Source: a virus. From it: a stretch of DNA of 47,215 bases. The notes under the pieces are model-generated. The model was not told the origin of the DNA, made no database searches, and saw only the letters and a list, made by a program, of their open reading frames with translations. The stretch is from IMG/VR virus record IMGVR_UViG_3300050821_016564, positions 1-47,215 of that record; one strand, given 5' to 3'. A program made the translations under genes and the position numbers. This document shows, piece after piece, positions 3,742-20,743 of the stretch; position 1 is the first letter of the stretch, and every line of letters starts with the position of its first letter.

Positions 3742-4224
3742 CTACTCGCAGCGTCCGGCAACGAGCGGATCGTCGTGCGTGGGGACGCATCGCAATCGCG
3801 CCGCGCAGCCCTCGTTGACGGGATGAGGCGACAGCTCGCCGCACGGTTGGGCCGCCGCGAGGCCGTAGACGCATCCCTGAAAGCCGGTAGTCACGTAGCA
3901 ACCGGGGGCGGCGCACGCAGCGGAGCTCGTCGCGCAATGAAGCCCCTGTTCGCACTGCGACTCGAGAGAACACCCGGGCGGCAGCACGCCCGCTTCGCAG
4001 ACGGCCACGTGCTCGCTGGGGCCGTACCCCGCCACCAGCGCGCACCCTTCCGGAAGAGCGTCGAAGTCGACGGCGGCATCCCCCCACGGGTCGACAGGAG
4101 GAGCGGCGCCGGCGTCGCCGGCCGCTACGGCGTTCGGCTCGCCGGCCTCGAATGACGGCCCCGCGCCCCCGCATGCCACGTTCACCAGCATCACCATCAC
4201 AAGTAGTACGTATGTCCTAGTCAT
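3742..4224 (-). CDS. Cys-rich exported lipoprotein (probable moron)
   Basis: The product is 160 aa. A hydrophobic signal (residues about 5-15) ends in 'NVACGG', a lipobox-like site with an atypical Asn at -3. An Ala/Asp/Pro linker follows, then a domain with about twelve Cys, probably disulfide-bonded. Such 'ACGG' plus D/A-linker proteins are common in myxobacteria. The gene runs against the late genes, ends 2 bp from the lysis cassette, and has its own strong Shine-Dalgarno (AAGGAGGGG, 4232-4240). This suggests expression in the lysogen: surface change or superinfection exclusion. Function is inferred from architecture only. Confidence 0.8.
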   Translation of the reverse strand: MTRTYVLLVMVMLVNVACGGAGPSFEAGEPNAVAAGDAGAAPPVDPWGDAAVDFDALPEGCALVAGYGPSEHVAVCEAGVLPPGCSLESQCEQGLHCATSSAACAAPGCYVTTGFQGCVYGLAAAQPCGELSPHPVNEGCAARLRCVPTHDDPLVAGRCE

Positions 4225-4338
4225 CGTCGTGCCCCTCCTTTACTTTGACGGCAGCGAGGGCCGGAAGCTTGAGCCTTACGACGTCCTTCGCGTCGATTCG
4301 TGTCACCAACTACTACATGAACAAGGAGGCTTTTTTCG

Positions 4339-4698
4339 ATGGATCGCAATCGCGAGATTCTGGGACTTGCGCAGCGTCTTCGCCAAATAGGCCGGGCCAA
4401 TATCGGGCGCGTGCTCGGGACCGTTGTGACCACGGCGGGTCGCTACAAGTTGTGGGTCGACCTTCTAGAGCGGAGCTACTTCCTTAGGGCCGAGGTCAAC
4501 GCCTTGTCGAAGCTCCTGCTTGACAAGGGGGTTTGCACGCAAGAGGAGCTGCAAGCCGCGTTCGCGGGTGAGTACAAACATCTTCTCGCCTCTATGTCCG
4601 AAGAATGGCCCGAGCTCACCTTCGAAGAGACGGGCTTTACGGTCATCGACCCGCAGGCGTTCTCGGCTCGCCTCAAGCGCGAGGACTGGCCACGATGA
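4339..4698 (+). CDS. Unrecognised 119-aa helical protein
   Basis: ATG 4339 follows a strong AAGGAGG (4324-4330). The sequence is mostly helical and charged, without Cys clusters or membrane segments. It heads a two-gene unit with the next gene (ATGA overlap), divergent from the lipoprotein. A copy of the 8-bp operator arm ACTACTAC lies upstream at 4309-4316. No family is recognised. Confidence 0.75.
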   Translation: MDRNREILGLAQRLRQIGRANIGRVLGTVVTTAGRYKLWVDLLERSYFLRAEVNALSKLLLDKGVCTQEELQAAFAGEYKHLLASMSEEWPELTFEETGFTVIDPQAFSARLKREDWPR

Positions 4699-5108
4699 CC
4701 GTTCACGTCTTCGACATGGGCATGGCGAAGTGCGCTTTTGGGTACGATGATCCTCCCAGTCGCTGGCCGGAGGGCCACAGGTGGGTTCGCATCCAGGATC
4801 AGAAACGAGCCACGTGCCCCGACTGCCTACGAGTGCTCGACGGCAGATGGCATCCCGTCTTGCGCTGGCAAGAGCTCAGCGTGGCGAACGTCACGATTAC
4901 GTTAGAGCCGAGGCCGGGCTACTGCGACCGTGGGCGCTGGCTCGCCAAGATTTCCGCATACGGATACGAGCCCGTGCATCTTGACGAAGCGGACGGGTGG
5001 CCCCGGTACTACTTCGACGAAGGCCGCGCGAAGGCCGAGATCCAAGAGTGGCTGCGCGCGAGGGGAATCACCGTTTCGGATTGGGAGGCGAAGGCTTCCG
5101 AGGTCTGA
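4695..5108 (+). CDS. Unrecognised 137-aa protein with one CxxC
   Basis: ATG 4695 overlaps the previous stop. One 'CPDC' motif near residues 41-44 and scattered His/Cys could bind metal. The rest alternates strands and helices and is rich in Trp and Tyr, ending in a helix ('WLRARGI'). Its last 41 bp overlap the 3' end of the convergent gene 5068-5286. Family unknown. Confidence 0.75.
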   Translation: MTVHVFDMGMAKCAFGYDDPPSRWPEGHRWVRIQDQKRATCPDCLRVLDGRWHPVLRWQELSVANVTITLEPRPGYCDRGRWLAKISAYGYEPVHLDEADGWPRYYFDEGRAKAEIQEWLRARGITVSDWEAKASEV

Positions 5109-9984: not shown

Positions 9985-11034
9985 ATGGCGCTCGCGGGCT
10001 TCTTCGACCCTTGGCCCTTGAGCGCTCGCTACGGGTCACACGGCTCGGAGGCGGGCGAGCCCCGCAGAAGGCTTCCTCTTCTTGTCTCCTCGGACGAGGA
10101 CGATCCGCTTCCCCCGCGCCCGCGGACGCGCGCGGACTGCATCGACGGCCCCCGCCCCTGCCCGTGGGTGGGGTGCCAATATGCCCTCTACCTAGACGTC
10201 TTGCCGCGCGATCTCCCCAAGGGCCCGCGGCTCAAAATCAACTTCCCCGAACTCGAGCCCGGCGAGATGCGCGACTCGTGCGCTCTCGACGTGGCCGAGG
10301 AAGGACAGCACACGGCGGCGCAAATCGGATCGTTTCTGCATTTGACCGAAGAGCGCATACGGCAAATCGAAATCGTGGCGGAGCTTCGTTTGGCTCCGCT
10401 CTTGGCCCATCTACACGACGAAGAGGCGACCATGGCGACGAAGAAAAAGAAGAAGGCCGGACGTAGCAACGGACGATTTCGTCAGGCCGTTGCGGCCTCG
10501 ACGCAGTACTTCCCGAAGACGACCAAGGGGGAAGTGCGCAAGGACGCCGTCGTCCGCGAACGCCGCAAAGAGAAGTGCCCGGTCAAGATTCCGGTCGAGG
10601 ACATTGAGAAGAAGTCGCAAGCGCTCGCCAAGGTCATTCAAGACCATGCGTCTCTTCTCGAGGAGAAGCGCGCGGCGAATGCCGAATTCAACGACAAGGT
10701 GAAGTACTTCAAGGAGCGAATGACCGAGCTCGCGGAGTCGGTCACTTCGCACACCGAAGTGCGGGACGTCGAGTGCATCGTATTTCTTCTCGAGAGGACG
10801 GGCGAGATGGTCACCATTCGCCAGGACACCGGCGAGCAGGTGGGCGACGCGCGCCCCGCCACCGCGGACGACCGGCAGGACTCCTTGCCTCTTGGCGAGC
10901 CGAGCGCCGAGAAGAACGCCGAAGCGAACGGCGCGGACGAGGGAGACGAGGAGGATGACGACGTCGAGACCTACGGGGATCTAGCCGACGACGACGACGA
11001 GGCCGAGGACGCCCGGCCGGGAGACGGGGGATGA
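9985..11034 (+). CDS. Sigma-region-4-like regulator with long acidic C-terminus
   Basis: 349 aa, with AAAGGTGG 12 bases upstream of the ATG. Residues about 55-140 read 'CPWVGCQYALYLDV', 'NFPELEPGEM.DSCALDVAEEGQHT' and 'IGSFLHLTEERIRQIEI'. This is a sigma-70 region-4-like helix-turn-helix preceded by a C...C block, of a type frequent in Myxococcota. Residue 150 is an internal Met with GAAGAGG upstream. After it come a Lys-rich stretch, a coiled coil (about 190-250) and a very acidic tail. It may recruit RNA polymerase or modify promoter choice. The second half could also be made as a separate protein. Confidence 0.75.
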   Translation: MALAGFFDPWPLSARYGSHGSEAGEPRRRLPLLVSSDEDDPLPPRPRTRADCIDGPRPCPWVGCQYALYLDVLPRDLPKGPRLKINFPELEPGEMRDSCALDVAEEGQHTAAQIGSFLHLTEERIRQIEIVAELRLAPLLAHLHDEEATMATKKKKKAGRSNGRFRQAVAASTQYFPKTTKGEVRKDAVVRERRKEKCPVKIPVEDIEKKSQALAKVIQDHASLLEEKRAANAEFNDKVKYFKERMTELAESVTSHTEVRDVECIVFLLERTGEMVTIRQDTGEQVGDARPATADDRQDSLPLGEPSAEKNAEANGADEGDEEDDDVETYGDLADDDDEAEDARPGDGG

Positions 11035-11429
11035 TGATGACCGCCATCGCCATGGCCCCCTACCCGGCGGCCAACGACGTGGGACCGACCGTGAAGCGAG
11101 CGAAGTTGAAGCCACCGGGCCCGAAGCCTGTCACCCTTACAAGTGTAGAAGCCGCGGAGCTCCTCAACGTATCGACGTCGACCTTCCGCGACGTCATCCG
11201 CCCGGACCTTCCCGTCGTCTATATCGGTCGCTCGGTTCGCTTCAACGAAAAGGATGTTTTGCAATGGCTCGAAGATCACACGGCGGTTCCTGGGAATGCT
11301 TCCTCCCGAAGGGGCGCACCATCTACGTCGTCCGCTTCCGCACGCCTTCAGGCCGCGTCACTCGCTCCACGGGCGAAAGCGATTCTCGAAAAGCTGCGCA
11401 AGAAGCCGCGCGCATCTACGCCGACGTAA
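11031..11429 (+). CDS. Excisionase-like MerR/HTH_17 DNA-binding protein
   Basis: 132 aa; ATGA overlap with the previous gene. Residues about 33-85 form a winged HTH of the excisionase/MerR type: 'LTSVEAAELLNVSTSTF', then 'VYIGRSVRFNEKDVLQWLE'. The remaining C-terminal part is Ser/Ala-rich and is read inside the integrase gene (166-bp overlap, other frame). Directly before the integrase it probably acts as recombination directionality factor, bending DNA at attP. A transcription-control role is also possible. Confidence 0.75.
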   Translation: MMMTAIAMAPYPAANDVGPTVKRAKLKPPGPKPVTLTSVEAAELLNVSTSTFRDVIRPDLPVVYIGRSVRFNEKDVLQWLEDHTAVPGNASSRRGAPSTSSASARLQAASLAPRAKAILEKLRKKPRASTPT

Positions 11430-12352
11430 TCTCCGGCCGCGTCGCCACGCGCGCGGCGGTGTCGGCGGATCTCGAGAAGGCCTTCGCGGGGTGGCTGGCT
11501 GAGTACGAAATGACCCACGCTGCGGGCACGACGGAGACCGTGACGGACTACGTGCGCGCGGACTTGCTTCCGTTCTTTCAGACCTTCGACCGGTTCACCG
11601 CCCCGTCGTACAGCGAATACATTCGCAAGCGCATCAAGGAGGTGACGCGCTCGACGCTCCGCAAGGAGCTGTCCGCCTTGCGGATGTTCTGCGCGTGGTG
11701 CGTCGAGCAAGGGGTCTCGGGCTTGCCCCCGATCCCGAGCCTGCCCAAGGCGGGTCACCCTGGGACGCGCGCCCCAAACGCGCGCCGACGTACGGGCAAC
11801 GCGCTCACGCCGGCCGAGATTGCGGAGCTTCTCCTCGCGATGCCCGAGCGCTCGCGGCGCACGGGAGATTTCGTCCGGCCGTTCTTTCAGATCCTTTGGG
11901 AGACGGGCCTGCGACCCTACTCGACCGTGGCGAAGCTCGAGGCGCCGCTTCACTACCGGCGCGGGCAAGACACGCTCTTCATCTCGCGCGAGATCGACAA
12001 GTCACGCTACGAGCGGCGCATCCCCCTGACGGACGCCGCGCGCGAGGCGCTCGATCGAGTGTGTCCGGAGTCGGGCCCGCTCTTTCCGGGCAACCCCGAC
12101 AACATGCGCGATGCGCTCCTGTCGGCGCTCCGCGCGACCGGCATCGACAAGCCGTTCAGCATCTACGACATCCGCCACTCTCGCATTAGTCATCTCGCCA
12201 ATAGCGGGGCGGCGCTTGCAGGCGTCGCGTTCCTCGTCGGGCACAAGCACGTTTCGACGACGGCTCTCTACGTGCACGCCTCGATGGCGGCGGCGGAGTC
12301 CGCGCTCGAAGCCGTCCGCAAGCCTGCGCCTAAGAGGGCTCGTCGTGCGTAG
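11264..12352 (+). CDS. int: Tyrosine-family phage integrase
   Basis: 362 aa. ATG 11264 has AAAAGGA 9 bases upstream, inside the excisionase-like gene. The N-terminal arm/core-binding region covers roughly residues 1-165. The catalytic domain shows 'WETGLRP' (first Arg), a Lys in 'DKSRY', box II 'YDIRHSRISHL' with Tyr in place of the usual first His, 'VGHKHVSTTALYVHA' with His and the Tyr nucleophile, then a basic tail. It should integrate the phage at the tRNA-Leu attachment site 1.6 kb downstream. Only the six-gene array separates int and attP. Confidence 0.93.
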   Translation: MARRSHGGSWECFLPKGRTIYVVRFRTPSGRVTRSTGESDSRKAAQEAARIYADVISGRVATRAAVSADLEKAFAGWLAEYEMTHAAGTTETVTDYVRADLLPFFQTFDRFTAPSYSEYIRKRIKEVTRSTLRKELSALRMFCAWCVEQGVSGLPPIPSLPKAGHPGTRAPNARRRTGNALTPAEIAELLLAMPERSRRTGDFVRPFFQILWETGLRPYSTVAKLEAPLHYRRGQDTLFISREIDKSRYERRIPLTDAAREALDRVCPESGPLFPGNPDNMRDALLSALRATGIDKPFSIYDIRHSRISHLANSGAALAGVAFLVGHKHVSTTALYVHASMAAAESALEAVRKPAPKRARRA

Positions 12353-12569
12353 AAGTCTCGCGTACCGGCAGGGCCTTGGCCTCGCTCTCGAGTTCGTCCG
12401 CAAGTTGTCGGAGAGACGCGACCGCCCTCGCCAACGTCGAGGGCGACGTGTGCACGGCGCAATGGTCATCGACCATGATGATGACGTACTCGTTGGCGTC
12501 GAAGTCGCGCCGGAGCTCCTTCGCGAGGGCGTCCAAGACGTTGTTACGCGGGCAGTCGTGGCCGTTCAC
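12330..12569 (-). CDS. Array paralog 1 (most diverged)
   Basis: 79 aa, GTG start abutting the previous stop. Pattern: helix, strand 'YVIIMVDD', short second strand ending 'HTS', helix 'LARAVASLRQLADELE'. It shares the helix-strand-strand-helix plan of the five genes upstream, ending in the LAD.LE motif. Its last 23 bp overlap the 3' end of int, tail to tail. Distal end of the array transcript. Function unknown. Confidence 0.75.
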   Translation of the reverse strand: MNGHDCPRNNVLDALAKELRRDFDANEYVIIMVDDHCAVHTSPSTLARAVASLRQLADELESEAKALPVRETSTHDEPS

Positions 12570-12797
12570 TTAGCTCACCCGGTCCTTGCCTGCGCGAAGC
12601 TGGGTCTCGAGCCGGTCGGCAAGTTTGCGAAGCAGAGCGGGCAAGTGGGACGAGCGGTTTGGATCCACGGTAGCGATCGCGTGCCCGGTGCCTTCGTCGG
12701 TGCCTTCCACGAAGAGGCAGACGGTCGAACCGTTGGTAGCGGCAAGGATGGCTGCCGCGAGGCCGTTGTATCGCTTTTGCGTGCTGTCGCTGCTCAT
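12570..12797 (-). CDS. Array paralog 2
   Basis: 75 aa, ATG start with AGGGGA just upstream and an 18-bp gap to the previous gene (the others have 0-3). Same plan: helix, 'TVCLFVEG', Gly-rich turn, 'AIATVD', helix 'LPALLRKLADRLE'. Closest by eye to paralog 3, with which it shares the G.G turn, the 'AT.D' strand and the LP.(L/V)LR.LAD end. Confidence 0.8.
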   Translation of the reverse strand: MSSDSTQKRYNGLAAAILAATNGSTVCLFVEGTDEGTGHAIATVDPNRSSHLPALLRKLADRLETQLRAGKDRVS

Positions 12798-12815
12798 GGC
12801 TCCCCTCGTTCTTTC

Positions 12816-13040
12816 CTACCCTCGGCCCATCTTGCCAAGGGCTTCGTTGTCCCGTTCGATTTCATCCGCGAGCTCACGCAGGACTCTCGGCAGATCGGAG
12901 AGGTAGCGCCGGTCGGTCGTGGCGAGACTGCTGCCGTCGCCTCTCGATCCTCCTCCTACAATCGTGAGGACGAGATCCGCGTGAAGCCCCTCGAGAAGCA
13001 TCGTCGTAATCGTGTCGTAGACGCCGGGTCCGATCGCCAT
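12816..13040 (-). CDS. Array paralog 3
   Basis: 74 aa. Helix, strand 'LVLTIVGGG', turn 'RGDG', strand 'SLATTD', helix 'LPRVLRELADEIE'. Short proteins with this 'V..GG..G.G.S.AT.D....LP.(V/L)LRE.AD.IE' pattern occur singly in other phages, as I recall; here it sits in a run of six. The junction to the gene before it is TAG, 3 bases, ATG, with an AAGGGGG ribosome site inside the preceding stop-proximal codons. Confidence 0.8.
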   Translation of the reverse strand: MAIGPGVYDTITTMLLEGLHADLVLTIVGGGSRGDGSSLATTDRRYLSDLPRVLRELADEIERDNEALGKMGRG

Positions 13041-13043
13041 CGC

Positions 13044-13304
13044 CTAGTCCCCCTTGGGCTCCGCGGCCCGTTTCTTTTTCGCGATGTACTCGGCTTCGAT
13101 TTCGCGTCCGGCGTCGCGCAATATTTCTGCGATGGCCAAAGGGCTGTCGAGCGGCGCGTTCGCGTTCACGGTCAGAAATGTTTGCCCGTCGGGGTTCACG
13201 GTGAGGATGACCACAAGCGTTTGCTTGTGGTCGTCCACGATGCGCTGAGCGGTTCGGACGGTGTCGCGGCCGATGGGCGCCGATTCGGGATCGGTCTCGG
13301 GCAT
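13044..13304 (-). CDS. Array paralog 4
   Basis: 86 aa. Longer acidic N-terminus, helix 'RTAQRIVDD', strand 'LVVILTVNPDG', strand 'TFLTVN', helix 'AIAEILRDAGREIE', Lys-rich end. The last codons (P-K-G-D) encode AAGGGGG, the Shine-Dalgarno for paralog 3. Confidence 0.8.
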   Translation of the reverse strand: MPETDPESAPIGRDTVRTAQRIVDDHKQTLVVILTVNPDGQTFLTVNANAPLDSPLAIAEILRDAGREIEAEYIAKKKRAAEPKGD

Positions 13305-13307
13305 GGC

Positions 13308-13562
13308 CTACGCTTCCTCCTTGGAGGCATCCAGGGTGAAGGCCACGGCGGGACATCTCTCGTCCTCGAGCGCTTCAATCGCGTGGCGAAGAAGGGCGGC
13401 GAGGTTCTCCCGCGTGGCAAAGAGCTTTTGGCCCGCGGTGGAGATGGTCACCTGCCCCTCTGCGTCTACGAGGACGAGCACGGAGATTACCGCTTCGTCT
13501 GCCACGCAGATCGCGCCGAGCGCCTTGCCGAGGAGTTCTTGTCTCTCGTCGAGTTTCGCCAT
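13308..13562 (-). CDS. Array paralog 5
   Basis: 84 aa. Helix 'LGKALGAICV', strand 'ISVLVLVDAEG', strand 'VTISTAG', helix 'LAALLRHAIEALE', then a short variable tail. The C-terminal 'SKEEA' codons encode AAGGAGG used by paralog 4 (TAG, GCC, ATG follow). Very similar in layout to paralog 6. Confidence 0.8.
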   Translation of the reverse strand: MAKLDERQELLGKALGAICVADEAVISVLVLVDAEGQVTISTAGQKLFATRENLAALLRHAIEALEDERCPAVAFTLDASKEEA

Positions 13563-13565
13563 GGC

Positions 13566-13820
13566 CTAGCTCTTCTCCTTGGGGGCAACGCAGACCCCGA
13601 CCGTTCCGTCAGGTCTCGTGGTCTTCACTTCGTGAGCGGCGCAGTCGAGCATGGCGCCGATGGCTTCGGGAAAGTTGTAGTTCGGCAGGCCCGCGGTGAA
13701 GACCGAGACCTCCCCCTCCTTGCTGGCCAAGACGAGGACGGCGACGGCGGCATCTTGCCCCATCAAGATCGTCGACAGGATTTTGATGACCGTCTCGCTA
13801 CGCTCGTCGTCTTTTCCCAT
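13566..13820 (-). CDS. Array paralog 6 (promoter-proximal)
   Basis: 84 aa. Helix 'VIKILSTILM', strand 'VAVLVLASKEG', strand 'VSVFTAG', helix 'IGAMLDCAAHEV', tail 'APKEKS' whose codons encode AAGGAG for the next gene. It heads the array and starts about 110 bp from attP, transcribed away from it. No signal peptide, membrane segment, catalytic motif or metal site is visible in any paralog, so a binding or scaffold role is more likely than enzymatic. Confidence 0.8.
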   Translation of the reverse strand: MGKDDERSETVIKILSTILMGQDAAVAVLVLASKEGEVSVFTAGLPNYNFPEAIGAMLDCAAHEVKTTRPDGTVGVCVAPKEKS

Positions 13821-13892
13821 GGCTCCGCTCTACCCCTTTGCCGTCCGTTCGTCCGCCTGGTGTCCCCGGGTTTCTCGCGGCGCCCCCCTAGC

Positions 13893-13912
13893 GGGATACG
13901 CTCTGGGATACG
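13893..13912 (+). repeat. Candidate integrase arm sites, left
   Basis: GGGATACG occurs at 13893-13900 and 13905-13912, a direct pair spaced 12 bp. Similar copies lie on the other side of the attP core at 14069 and 14078. This is the arrangement expected for arm-type integrase sites. Confidence 0.5.
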
Positions 13913-13928
13913 CAGGGGGTTTTCGGGG

Positions 13929-13983
13929 TGCGAACGGCGGGAATTGAACCCGCAAGCCGAGTTATCGGCGCCAGAACCTGAAG
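13929..13983 (-). other. attP: attP core: 3' half of a tRNA-Leu(CAG)
   Basis: On the minus strand 55 bases match the 3' half of a class II tRNA. They comprise an anticodon loop reading TTCAGGT (CAG), 3' anticodon stem TCTGG, a long variable arm with stem GCCGA/TCGGC, T-arm GCGGG-TTCAATT-CCCGC, acceptor 3' strand CGTTCGC and A73. The bases upstream do not complete the anticodon stem, so no functional tRNA exists here. This is the signature of a phage that integrates into the anticodon loop and restores the host tRNA-Leu. Confidence 0.87.
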
Positions 13984-14002
13984 ATGGCTCACGCCTGCAC
14001 GG

Positions 14003-14085
14003 TTCTCGGTATTTCTCGGTAAAAGCTGCGATTCTGGTAGCGCCAGAAGGCGCGAAACGGCGCGGCGCGGGATACGCGGGACACG
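14003..14085 (+). repeat. attP right arm: repeats and hairpin
   Basis: TTCTCGGTA is repeated at 14003-14011 and 14013-14021 (10-bp step, candidate excisionase or accessory sites). A GCGCC-AGAA-GGCGC hairpin follows at 14040-14053. GGGATACG at 14069-14076 and GGGACACG at 14078-14085 match the left-arm motif. No gene is seen in 13821-14143. Confidence 0.45.
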
Positions 14086-14143
14086 CAAAACGCGAGCGTG
14101 ACCATGGGTCGGCGCTCACGAAAACAGACCCGCCGGTGTGCCT

Positions 14144-14359
14144 ATGACCGCGCCCGTACTCGAATGGCGACGCGCTCCGCGCCAGCACGTAGCCCATCTG
14201 TGGCGTGACGGGATCCAGGTCTGTTGGCACCCCAATTCGGGAGGGACCATCGTCGAGTATTTCCCCGTTCCGCTCACCTCCTTTGGAGAGCCGTACGGCC
14301 ATACCTGCGCGTACTGCCGAAAGCACTTTCGACGCGCGAAGAAAGAGCAGGCCGCATGA
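14144..14359 (+). CDS. Small Cys/His protein at start of replication operon
   Basis: 71 aa from ATG 14144 (a GTG two codons earlier is possible). 'HTCAYCRKHF' near the C-terminus plus upstream Cys/His may bind zinc. 4-bp overlap with the replication gene. First gene to the right of attP. Function unknown. Confidence 0.65.
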   Translation: MTAPVLEWRRAPRQHVAHLWRDGIQVCWHPNSGGTIVEYFPVPLTSFGEPYGHTCAYCRKHFRRAKKEQAA

Positions 14360-15087
14360 CACTCGAAGATGAGCGCCTCGCTCTTGCACAAGCCGCCCTC
14401 GAACTTGTCGACAGGATCCTCGACTTCGCCGGCGTGCCGCTGTCTCCGTCGCCCGTTCGCAAGGAGCCCCTCTCGAACGCAGAGAAGTGCCGACGGAGGA
14501 GAGAGGCTAAGCGACACCAAAGCGACACCGCGGACGGTGTCGCGACACCGAAAGCGACACCGAGCGACACCGGGCGGGGGGTAGGGGGGACTCTCTCTCT
14601 TATCTCGGATTTTTCAGAGAAAAAGAGAGAGTCTGAGGTCTTCGCGCGCGAGCCGAGCGACACCGGCGCGACACCGAAAGCGACACCGGCGACACCAGAA
14701 ACGACACCGCTCGGTGTCGCGCCCGATGGCGAACGCTACGTGCGTCTGACCGATGCAATCACGCCAGAGCTCACCGCGGCTGCGCAGCTTGCGACCGTGC
14801 AAGATATCGCGGCGGCGTGGGCGAAGTTCACCGGACACCACGCCGACAAATGGATCCACGTCGCGGGCCAGTGGCAAGTGTGGTGCGTCCGGGAGGCGAA
14901 GAGAGAGCGCGTAGAGCGCGAGAAGCTACGCGCGATTGGCATAGTCAAAGCTCCCGGCGCGATCGATTACGAGGCGCAAGCGCGGGCGAATGCACGAGCG
15001 AGGAAGCAGGCAGCCGAGCGGCCGAAGGAGCCCCCGCTCACGCCGGAAGTTATGGCGCAAACGCTCCGGGAGATCGGACTCAAGTGA
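14356..15087 (+). CDS. Putative replication initiator carrying the origin
   Basis: 243 aa from ATG 14356 (ATGA overlap). The N-terminal helix is followed by a basic patch 'EKCRRRREAKRH'. Residues about 52-125 are a low-complexity S/T/A/P/D region produced by DNA repeats. The C-terminal half (about 130-210) has a helical block 'IAAAWAKFTGHH...W..VAGQWQVWC', like the C-terminal part of phage initiators that meet helicase loaders, then a basic tail. An origin embedded mid-gene is the lambda O arrangement. The initiator role is inferred from origin placement and operon position; no helicase or primase motif is present. Confidence 0.65.
   Translation: MTLEDERLALAQAALELVDRILDFAGVPLSPSPVRKEPLSNAEKCRRRREAKRHQSDTADGVATPKATPSDTGRGVGGTLSLISDFSEKKRESEVFAREPSDTGATPKATPATPETTPLGVAPDGERYVRLTDAITPELTAAAQLATVQDIAAAWAKFTGHHADKWIHVAGQWQVWCVREAKRERVEREKLRAIGIVKAPGAIDYEAQARANARARKQAAERPKEPPLTPEVMAQTLREIGLK
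14511..14720 (+). other. ori: Iteron-type replication origin inside the initiator gene
   Basis: GCGACACC occurs nine times directly (14511, 14522, 14542, 14554, 14564, 14657, 14668, 14680, 14689), once with one change (14701) and twice inverted (14536, 14713). Most neighbours are 9-12 bp apart, one helical turn. Between the two clusters lies a segment of CT runs, AT-richer bases and GA runs (14590-14633) with inverted repeat GACTCTCTC/GAGAGAGTC, a likely unwinding element. The iteron is read in different codon frames in different copies (S-D-T, A-T-P, R-H-Q), so the DNA motif, not the peptide, is conserved. Confidence 0.8.
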
Positions 15088-15344
15088 GCTGCAAGATCCT
15101 CACACCGGAAGGCACGACGGCGACGATGATCCTCTGCTCGCGTGGACGGGGCAGGAGGCAGCAATGCGACACGAGCGGGTGTCGAGGCACGGCGGTCGCG
15201 TTGTGCGACTTCCCGGTCACCGTCTACGGTCGCGCGACAACGTGTAGCCGTCGCATGTGCAAGGCGTGCCGCCACGCGCAGGGTGGCGATCGCGACTTCT
15301 GCCCGCCTCATGATCGGTTGCAGAAAGCGAAGGCGACGCCATGA
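15084..15344 (+). CDS. Multi-Cys zinc-binding phage protein
   Basis: 86 aa, GTGA overlap. Eight or more Cys in pairs: 'QQCDTSGC', 'LCDFPV', 'TCSRRMCKAC', 'FCPPH'. This C..C/C..C..H pattern matches a common uncharacterised phage zinc protein seen beside RusA-like genes. It probably folds around two zinc ions. Role in replication or recombination unknown. Confidence 0.75.
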   Translation: MSCKILTPEGTTATMILCSRGRGRRQQCDTSGCRGTAVALCDFPVTVYGRATTCSRRMCKACRHAQGGDRDFCPPHDRLQKAKATP

Positions 15345-15766
15345 GCTCGCAGCTTCCCCTCGCGGTCACGCTGACGACCCGCCCGTCGGTCTTCTTCGTG
15401 ATCCCCGTGCAGACGAAGAACCCCAGCAATCAAGCGCGCGGAAATTCGCAACGCGCGGCGATGGCGGCGGTGGCTGCCGATGCGAAGCGGCGCAAGATTT
15501 CTTGCCATCACACCCGAGAGGCCATCCGTCGTGCCGGCCTTACGAGAGCGGACCTCGTGCCGGCCGTGGTGACCTTGACACGCGTTTCCTTCGGAAAGCT
15601 CGACGGTCACGACGGCCTACCGCCAGCGCTAAAGCGTGTGGTCGATGGGATCGCCGAAGCTCTCGGCATCGACGACGGGGGGCCCTTCGTCCGGTGGCAG
15701 TACGCGCAGCGTCGCGGGGCGAAGTCGTACTACGCGGTCGAAGTCACGATCGAGCGGATGCGATGA
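15341..15766 (+). CDS. RusA-like Holliday-junction resolvase
   Basis: 141 aa, ATGA overlap. The C-terminal half has 'RVSFGKLDGHDGLPPALKRVVDGIAEALGIDDG', then 'VRWQYAQRR' and a V-x-V-x-I strand. This is the order of RusA-family resolvases (L-D-x-D-N-L, A-x-K, D-G-I, L-G-x-D-D). The first motif reads LDGHDGL instead of LDxDNL, so one canonical Asp/Asn pair is changed. It should resolve branched replication intermediates before packaging. Confidence 0.75.
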   Translation: MSSQLPLAVTLTTRPSVFFVIPVQTKNPSNQARGNSQRAAMAAVAADAKRRKISCHHTREAIRRAGLTRADLVPAVVTLTRVSFGKLDGHDGLPPALKRVVDGIAEALGIDDGGPFVRWQYAQRRGAKSYYAVEVTIERMR

Positions 15767-18997: not shown

Positions 18998-19170
18998 ACA
19001 AGCTCAATGACGATCGCGACCGAGCGGAGTGGTTGCAATGTCTCCAGGCCGCTGCCGTATTGGAAGGTCGCATCCCTTCGCAGGAAGGGCTCGTCACTGG
19101 ACAAGACGTCGAGCTCGCGTGCACGACTACGGATTGGCTCTTTGAGGAGTTTCGAAGGCGGTGCGCGTGA
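18994..19170 (+). CDS. 58-aa unrecognised protein in glycan cassette
   Basis: ATG 18994 overlaps the previous stop. Acidic, helical, two Cys, a single domain without motifs. Coupled to the epimerase gene downstream. Confidence 0.6.
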   Translation: MNKLNDDRDRAEWLQCLQAAAVLEGRIPSQEGLVTGQDVELACTTTDWLFEEFRRRCA

Positions 19171-20063
19171 TGCGGGTGGCAGTAACCGGCGGCGCCGGCT
19201 TCGTGGGTAGCGCCATCGTCCGCTCGCTTCTCGCGGCTGGCCATCACGTCCTCGTCGTCGACGATCTCTCGACCGGCAAGGTTGGAAACATCGAAGGGCT
19301 CGCGTGCGACTTTCACCACGTGGACGCCGGAAGCGCGCTGTATTCGAGCTGCGAAGCTGTCGTCCACGCCGCGGCCTATCCCGACGTCTCGCAGAACTGG
19401 AAGCATCCACGTGAGAGAGCGCGTCAGTGGCAGAGCAATGCGGAGCTCACCCGCCGTGTCCTCGAGCGCGAGATTCCGCTTGGCTGCCGCTTCGTGCTGC
19501 TCTCCACCTGTTCGGTCTACGGCGGCGGCCGTGTCGACGAGAGCGCCATCCCACGGGCGACCTCGCCTTACGCCGCCTCGAAGATCGCGGCCGAAGCTCT
19601 CGTCTCCGCATATACCGAGGCGGGGCGAATCGACGGCGTGACGCTACGCCTCGTGAACGTCGTGGGCCCACGCTATGGCCACGGGCACATCGCGGACTTC
19701 GTGCGAATGGCGCGCGAGGGGCATGTGCACGCCCTGGACGACGGGCGCAAAGCGAAGAGCTTCGTGCACGCGGACGACGTCGCCGCCTGCGTCCGCGACT
19801 GCATCGAGTCCCCCCAGTGCGGCCCGACTGGCCGTATCGGCAACGTGTCAAGCGCCGTGTGTTGGAGCTGGCGCGACACTGTCGGCGTCATGCGTTCGAT
19901 GCGCCCCGATCTAGCCTTTGAGCTCACGCACGAGCAGAGGCGTTCGGGGTGGATTGGCGACCCTGACGAACTGGTCGTCAGCTCGCATGTCTTCGATGAG
20001 CAGTCGACAAGCGTTGCGGTCGGTGTTGGGCAAGCGCTCGAGTCTCTCGGGTGGATGAAGTGA
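19170..20063 (+). CDS. NAD-dependent epimerase/dehydratase (extended SDR)
   Basis: 297 aa from ATG 19170 (GTG 19161 or 19167 also in frame). N-terminal 'VAVTGGAGFVGSAIV' is the T-G-x-x-G-x-x-G NAD site, with 'VVDDLSTGK' at strand two. The catalytic Ser region is 'LLSTCSVYGGG' and the Y-x-x-x-K motif is 'YAASK'. 'RLVNVVGPRYG' and 'FVHADDVA' are typical of UDP-sugar 4-epimerases and relatives. It probably makes the nucleotide sugar used by neighbouring transferases. Exact substrate not readable. Confidence 0.9.
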   Translation: MRVAVTGGAGFVGSAIVRSLLAAGHHVLVVDDLSTGKVGNIEGLACDFHHVDAGSALYSSCEAVVHAAAYPDVSQNWKHPRERARQWQSNAELTRRVLEREIPLGCRFVLLSTCSVYGGGRVDESAIPRATSPYAASKIAAEALVSAYTEAGRIDGVTLRLVNVVGPRYGHGHIADFVRMAREGHVHALDDGRKAKSFVHADDVAACVRDCIESPQCGPTGRIGNVSSAVCWSWRDTVGVMRSMRPDLAFELTHEQRRSGWIGDPDELVVSSHVFDEQSTSVAVGVGQALESLGWMK

Positions 20064-20743
20064 TCACGATCGCCCTGGCGGTGCCTCATGCCGCCTGGAT
20101 TCCCGAGCGTGTAGCGAGCATGACGCGGCTCCGATGGCAGCTCGGGATCGGCGAGAACGTCGATGAGCTGCCGGAGGGCTTGGCTCACTACCGAGCCTTC
20201 ACGGAGCGCGAGGCGAATCACGAGTGGAGCGAGAGGCTGTGGACCTGGCTCGCCACTGGCGACCAGACGCATTGCCTACAGCTCCAAGACGACTGCCTTG
20301 TTCCCCCGAATTTCTGGGCCGCGCTGAGCGCGCTCCTCGCCGCGTTCCCTCGCCAGGTCATTTGCTTCCAGTCGGTGCATGTCGCGGCCCGAGCTCTGGC
20401 GGAAGAAGGAGAGCGTGGGTACACGACGAGCGAGCACTTGATTGGCGTCGCTTATTGCCTCCCGCGCGAGCTCCTCGTCGAGTTCCTCGGGTGGCGGCGA
20501 ACGAAGCTCAAGCCAGGGGCTATCGAGGCCATCTCGGAGGATACGCTCATGGCTGCGTGGTGCCTTGCGACCGGTCACCGCGTCTTCCACCCGATCCCAA
20601 CGATCGTCAAGCACGACGTCTCCAAGGCGAGTACGTACGGCAACGACGACCACGAGGCGCGCGTCTCGCCTGTGCCATGGGATGTCGAGGGCGCTCCGTG
20701 GACGCTCACCGACTTGGAGCGCGAGGAGTTTTGGCGCCAATGA
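20060..20743 (+). CDS. Glycosyltransferase-like protein 2 (paralog of 18197 gene)
   Basis: 227 aa. GTG 20060 gives the usual 4-bp overlap; GTG 20051 adds three residues. Strand 'ITIALAVPH', 'LQLQDDCLVPPNFWAAL' (D-D-C site), 'GVAYCLPRELL', 'EDTLMAAWC', 'PIPTIVKHDVSKAST'. It shares order and motifs with glycosyltransferase-like protein 1, so the two probably arose by duplication within this lineage and diverged in specificity. Confidence 0.75.
   Translation: MITIALAVPHAAWIPERVASMTRLRWQLGIGENVDELPEGLAHYRAFTEREANHEWSERLWTWLATGDQTHCLQLQDDCLVPPNFWAALSALLAAFPRQVICFQSVHVAARALAEEGERGYTTSEHLIGVAYCLPRELLVEFLGWRRTKLKPGAIEAISEDTLMAAWCLATGHRVFHPIPTIVKHDVSKASTYGNDDHEARVSPVPWDVEGAPWTLTDLEREEFWRQ

Follow-up and report, generated by a model that had tools for sequence, protein, structure and literature searches.

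Six small genes, falling into two paralogous groups, between the integrase gene and attP of a temperate myovirus

Polymorphic toxin loci carry tandem arrays of immunity genes, which are small, diverged and oriented in one direction. Accessory genes are also found beside the integrase gene int in prophages and satellites, at hotspots such as P4 psu-int and the Vibrio P2-like cI-int (PMC9122126), and in S. aureus prophages the Tha/Ith system consists of a defence gene and an overlapping antisense inhibitor that was once taken for xis (PMC11087260). The window, as we call the whole stretch of DNA analysed here (47,215 bases), covers positions 1-47,215 of IMG/VR record IMGVR_UViG_3300050821_016564. 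It is a temperate myovirus, as it carries terminase, portal, capsid, sheath, tape-measure and baseplate genes together with an integrase gene.

As at the P4 and Vibrio hotspots, the window has variable cargo by the integrase gene and a constant integration module. In contrast to those hotspots, its slot extends from the int 3' end to attP, the cargo is convergent with int, and this cargo consists of six ORFan genes in two paralogous groups, with no recognised defence system. Small genes next to integration functions with an antisense overlap are common to the array and to Tha/Ith; the array, however, lacks a HEPN or other recognised domain and is composed of paralogues rather than of an effector and its inhibitor. 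With the immunity arrays of polymorphic toxins it shares a one-direction run of small diverged genes, whereas it has neither an immunity-family match nor a recognised toxin gene alongside. The features of the locus are as follows.

11031-11429, plus strand: HTH_17 excisionase-like gene, overlapping the int start
11264-12352, plus strand: tyrosine integrase gene (int), 362 aa, phrog_1, convergent with the array
12330-12569, minus strand: array gene 1, 79 aa, starting with GTG and sharing 23 bp at its 3' end with the int 3' end
12570-12797, minus strand: array gene 2, 75 aa, ATG start; 32-34% identity to gene 3
12816-13040, minus strand: array gene 3, 74 aa, ATG start
13044-13304, minus strand: array gene 4, 86 aa, ATG start; relative of genes 5 and 6 at profile level
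13308-13562, minus strand: array gene 5, 84 aa, ATG start; 33% identity to gene 6
13566-13820, minus strand: array gene 6, first in the operon, 84 aa, ATG start
13821-13926, minus strand: leader, 106 bp, from the attP core to gene 6
13893-13901, minus strand: arm-type repeat GCGTATCCC, array side of the core
13905-13913, minus strand: arm-type repeat GCGTATCCC, array side of the core
13927-13982, minus strand: attP core; holds the 3' half of tRNA-Leu(CAG), anticodon loop through 3' end
14069-14077, minus strand: arm-type repeat GCGTATCCC, far side of the core
14078-14086, minus strand: arm-type repeat variant GCGTGTCCC, far side of the core

The initial annotation had described six minus-strand genes of 74-86 codons at 12330-13820, and we find them there, with open reading frames, coding composition and ribosome-binding sites. 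GC at codon positions 1/2/3 is about 0.6-0.7 / 0.4-0.5 / 0.72-0.85 in the array genes; the array's pattern (~0.66/0.43/0.79) matches that of the other genes of the phage and is a coding signature, so we take all six to be coding. The intergenic gaps are 3, 3, 3, 18 and 0 bases, and all six genes occupy one reading frame, which is the reason why a long open frame (12111-14147) exists on the plus strand. This frame stays open across the whole array, and one could read it as the real gene, of 678 aa, and the six minus-strand ORFs as an artefact. We consider that extremely improbable: its GC by codon position (0.79/0.45/0.66) is the mirror image of that of the minus-strand genes, it also covers int and attP, and the minus frames have ribosome-binding sites and paralogy. 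Judged by its composition, the 678-aa plus-strand ORF is an antisense shadow of the array genes.

Near-identical TAG-GCC-ATG junctions recur along the array (CCAAGGAG…TAGGCCATG at junctions 6/5 and 5/4, CCCAAGGGGGACTAGGCGATG at junction 4/3). At three junctions the ribosome-binding site sits in the last codons of the preceding gene, and the shared Pro/Ser-Lys-Glu/Gly C-terminal ends arise because the site is built from those codons. The location of ribosome-binding sites inside the ends of preceding genes suggests that the array genes are translationally coupled. TAG is the stop codon of five of the six array genes, compared to 8 of 33 other genes of the phage; since TAG also serves as a normal stop codon in the rest of the phage, recoding is not indicated.

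We have compared the six products in pairs by Smith-Waterman alignment against shuffled sequences. The z-scores are 16.8 for pair 5-6, 13.2 for 2-3, 6.4 for 1-3 and 5.7 for 1-2, and gene 4 scores 25.9 against the profile of genes 5 and 6, the best of 59 control ORFs reaching 16.6. These values support two paralogous groups, genes 1-3 on the one hand and genes 5 and 6 with gene 4 on the other, the membership of gene 4 being established at profile level. Profile comparison of genes 5 and 6 (with gene 4) with genes 1-3 yields P=0.05-0.07, and four control ORFs outscore genes 4-6 against the profile of genes 1-3. Of the earlier proposal that all six are paralogues, the two groups of three are therefore retained and the single family of six is not; what suggests a kinship between genes 1-3 and 4-6 is solely their common helix-strand-strand-helix plan.

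Identity within the groups is ~25-34%, with length and plan retained. In pairs 2-3, 1-3 and 4-5 codon position 2 is conserved and position 3 saturated. Selection on the protein would produce this pattern, which the protein-guided alignment itself favours. In pair 5-6 every codon position is conserved above expectation, and this pair is probably the youngest duplication. When 161 loci (1.3 Mb, a non-random sample) were scanned for runs of at least three adjacent small paralogues, the run of the window was the only one found.

An AlphaFold2 model of the gene 3 product, built on the six-row alignment (pLDDT 77, pTM 0.48), agrees with the helix-strand-strand-helix plan: it has a helix at 5-18, strands at 25-29 and 37-41, and helices at 44-48 and 50-72. 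The between-group profile comparison does not extend this plan to a single fold for the six. Foldseek with the gene 3 model returned no match below E=0.1 from the PDB and BFVD; the best PDB matches are PadR-family regulators at E=0.2 or more. The single-sequence model of the gene 5 product (pLDDT 51) is too poor for use.

No homologue of the array proteins was found in Pfam, NCBIfam, PHROGs, PADLOC or the PDB, tblastn with each of the six yielded nothing convincing among 50,697 phage records, and neither pattern scans of IMG/VR (with the 5/6 alignment, the 1/2/3 alignment and gene 5) nor a scan of genome contigs with the 5/6 alignment gave a homologue. The array profiles were further run against 361-379 genomes of the phylum of a metagenome-assembled genome (MAG) with a related portal; they gave chance-level matches inside long frames alone, and since the best 14-15 candidates per genome were scored, this does not prove absence. 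The same array was found in no relative in the collections searched, and with no homologue in them the earlier remark that such proteins occur singly in other phages is left unconfirmed. Among the six products no toxin or antitoxin family scored above cut-off in Pfam, NCBIfam and PADLOC, and no anti-phage defence protein catalogued in PADLOC was detected. Gene 1 has a weak match to phrog_13835; a search with that family returned no matches, controls included, and is uninformative. We attribute to chance a weak PDB profile match (E=0.05) with a fragment of an alanyl-tRNA synthetase.

A DNA scan of IMG/VR for LRxLADxxE finds that this helix recurs in many phage proteins, with the likeness ending at the helix. 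Small proteins that carry an LRxLADxIE helix, such as phage proteins encoded in L073, L111, L044 and L096, resemble the array products in size and helix motif and, to judge by their sequences, would share a beta hairpin as well, whereas their motif helix mostly precedes the hairpin, unlike the order in the array. With the likeness limited to the helix, homology is not shown. Circular permutation of the array plan relative to these proteins was considered and dropped because the order of the elements is not a rotation.

The initial annotation had also placed the array next to attP and at one end of the prophage. The attP location is confirmed, by a tRNA-Leu(CAG) 3' half flanked by integrase arm-type repeats; the array is located between int and attP and would therefore sit at one end of the prophage. 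The attP core has up to 84% identity to tRNA-Leu(CAG) genes from the phylum of the likely host, and its orientation was set by alignment to those genes. The GCGTATCCC repeats are probable integrase arm sites, because the same 12-bp-spaced GCGTATCCC pair is conserved beside the tRNA 3' end in L030, a relative from IMG/VR. The 3' end of the tRNA faces the array, and therefore the tRNA-Leu restored in a lysogen would lie upstream of gene 6, co-directional with it and 106 bp away; intact tRNAs are seen in the same place and direction in the integrated relatives L161, L168, L171 and L174. Compared to the window (13893-14086), the attP segment of L030 (2199-2390), that is, arms plus tRNA core, is inverted relative to int. 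The same inversion is found in L166, L167, L169, L170 and L176, so orientation is not fixed in this integrase family. On the other side of int, the HTH_17 gene runs in a different frame over 166 bases at the start of int, an overlap retained in L003 and L030.

We have examined the slot in 18 relatives of int. They come from IMG/VR (L003 and L030) and from the phylum to which the related-portal MAG, titled 'uncultured delta proteobacterium', belongs, where 12 of 379 genomes contributed. In 14 of the 18 the att tRNA lies at most ~170 bp from the int 3' end, leaving no room for the array, and the 1.5-kb run of the window is therefore cargo in the slot: the window has it, whereas relatives that share the integration module lack it at this position. 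No tRNA was found in L162 and L163. In L174 the cargo between tRNA-Leu(GAG) and int measures 1.2 kb and comprises DUF2283-like, DUF433 and DUF5615 genes (400-1423). In L182, a wider version of locus L173, DUF4258 and DUF2283 genes (4139-4829) are found between tRNA-Leu(GAG) and int; the DUF2283 proteins of L174 and L182 are 77% identical. In both, the cargo runs in the direction from tRNA to int, as in the window, is convergent with int and is co-directional with an intact tRNA-Leu(GAG). The integrase frame of L174 is short (285 aa) and may be a remnant, and in L182 tRNA-Leu(GAG) lies 5.6 kb from int and may not be the att site of that integrase.

Accessory genes had been expected at such a place, and the toxin-antitoxin-type genes in the slot of these two relatives bear this out. 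In Synechocystis, PIN and DUF433 proteins have been shown to form a toxin-antitoxin pair (PMC3834315), and DUF4258 appears as a toxin in survey lists (PMC4963859, PMC8790059). The DUF433-DUF5615 and DUF4258-DUF2283 pairs resemble the array in their slot, in their orientation to tRNA and int and in being small, tightly ordered genes; the array differs in having no toxin-antitoxin family match and in consisting of six genes in two groups, not a two-partner module. A possible GNAT toxin-antitoxin pair near int in L169 was left out of the count of slot cargo because a piece of tRNA separates it from int.

The reading we favour, with a probability of roughly 0.5, is that the array is accessory cargo for lysogeny, serving conflict or maintenance, located in the int-attP slot, translationally coupled, and diversified by duplication. 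Cargo for the lysogenic state is favoured by the position of the array and by what relatives carry there, and small binding proteins are favoured because five of the six products are acidic (pI 4.5-4.9) and no catalytic or DNA-binding domain was recognised among them. Upon integration the slot would become a prophage end immediately downstream of the restored tRNA-Leu(CAG) and co-oriented with it, and in the lysogen the array would be transcribed either from the tRNA promoter, by read-through, or from a promoter within the leader of 106 bp, where integrase arm sites could tie its expression to Int/Xis occupancy. A scan of the leader (13821-13926) gave no intrinsic terminator and no sigma-70-like promoter; throughout 11000-15500 no sigma-70-like site was found either. 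Expression through tRNA read-through is a prediction, and a case in M. tuberculosis counts against it, where read-through out of the tRNA operon was minimal at valU, the phiRv2 site (PMC3861185). The products would act by binding, whether in conflict between phages, in conflict of phage and host, or in maintaining the prophage, and duplication with divergence could have given them a wider range of partners, or hetero-oligomers. A more far-reaching version, which we regard as rather doubtful, is a new kind of conflict module: an expandable tandem array in which one family of small helix-strand-strand-helix proteins has gained several binding specificities through duplication, expressed in the lysogen and switched on by integration through the upstream tRNA.

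The same genes could instead form a hetero-oligomeric or regulatory module that serves the phage, for example in int/xis or lysogeny control, with a transcript antisense into int. Convergence with int and the 23-bp overlap of the last gene with the int 3' end would suit this role, as would the arm sites in the leader, a scan that reported no minus-strand terminator-like site past gene 1, and the precedent of Tha/Ith in S. aureus prophages (PMC11087260). However, the products are mostly acidic with no DNA-binding domain recognised, and the same integration module works in relatives that lack the array; we hold such a module to be unlikely. No more probable is an anti-defence operon, anti-CRISPR-like or anti-restriction, whose small acidic proteins would block host defences on infection. 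Small size, acidity, a tight operon and divergence are in keeping with that style, whereas the products match no known anti-defence family and none has the helix-turn-helix match of an Aca-type regulator, the sole HTH gene seen near the array being the xis-like gene on the opposite strand; moreover, a place next to attP fits lysogeny at least as well as early infection. Known anti-CRISPR operons combine unrelated genes, not paralogues, which also counts against this reading. The array might, lastly, be a recent or decaying local amplification with no selected function, in keeping with its ORFan genes, for which the searched collections gave no homologue. We find this quite improbable, for the six frames are intact and like other genes in codon-position GC, and the paralogues, diverged as far as they are within each group, have nevertheless kept length, plan and codon-position-2 identity.

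The int-attP slot appears to be a cargo site in the integrase family of the window phage. Because the restored tRNA points into it, the slot could give integration-dependent expression without a phage regulator. If so, scanning int-attP slots would be a cheap route to lysogen-expressed conflict and maintenance genes, and the array would be an unusual case of a phage retaining diverged copies of small proteins in one operon.

Several further observations concern the phage at large. A complete tRNA-Cys(GCA) gene lies inside the phage (24610-24683, minus strand). Homologues of a nucleotide-sugar epimerase and a glucosyltransferase are adjacent at 19161-20743, as plus-strand genes ahead of the terminase gene, and may work together in modifying DNA or a surface. 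The portal of the window recurs without change on an 8.5-kb contig of a different metagenome (L004, IMGVR_UViG_3300021181_000230), so a second sample contains the phage or a near twin. Beyond attP, GCGACACC occurs nine times at 14511-14696, within the gene at 14224-15087, whose true start is likely further in. The product of this gene has a stretch, LSNAEKCRRRREAKR, that we take to resemble an initiator, and by analogy with lambda O the GCGACACC copies may be origin iterons within a replication gene.
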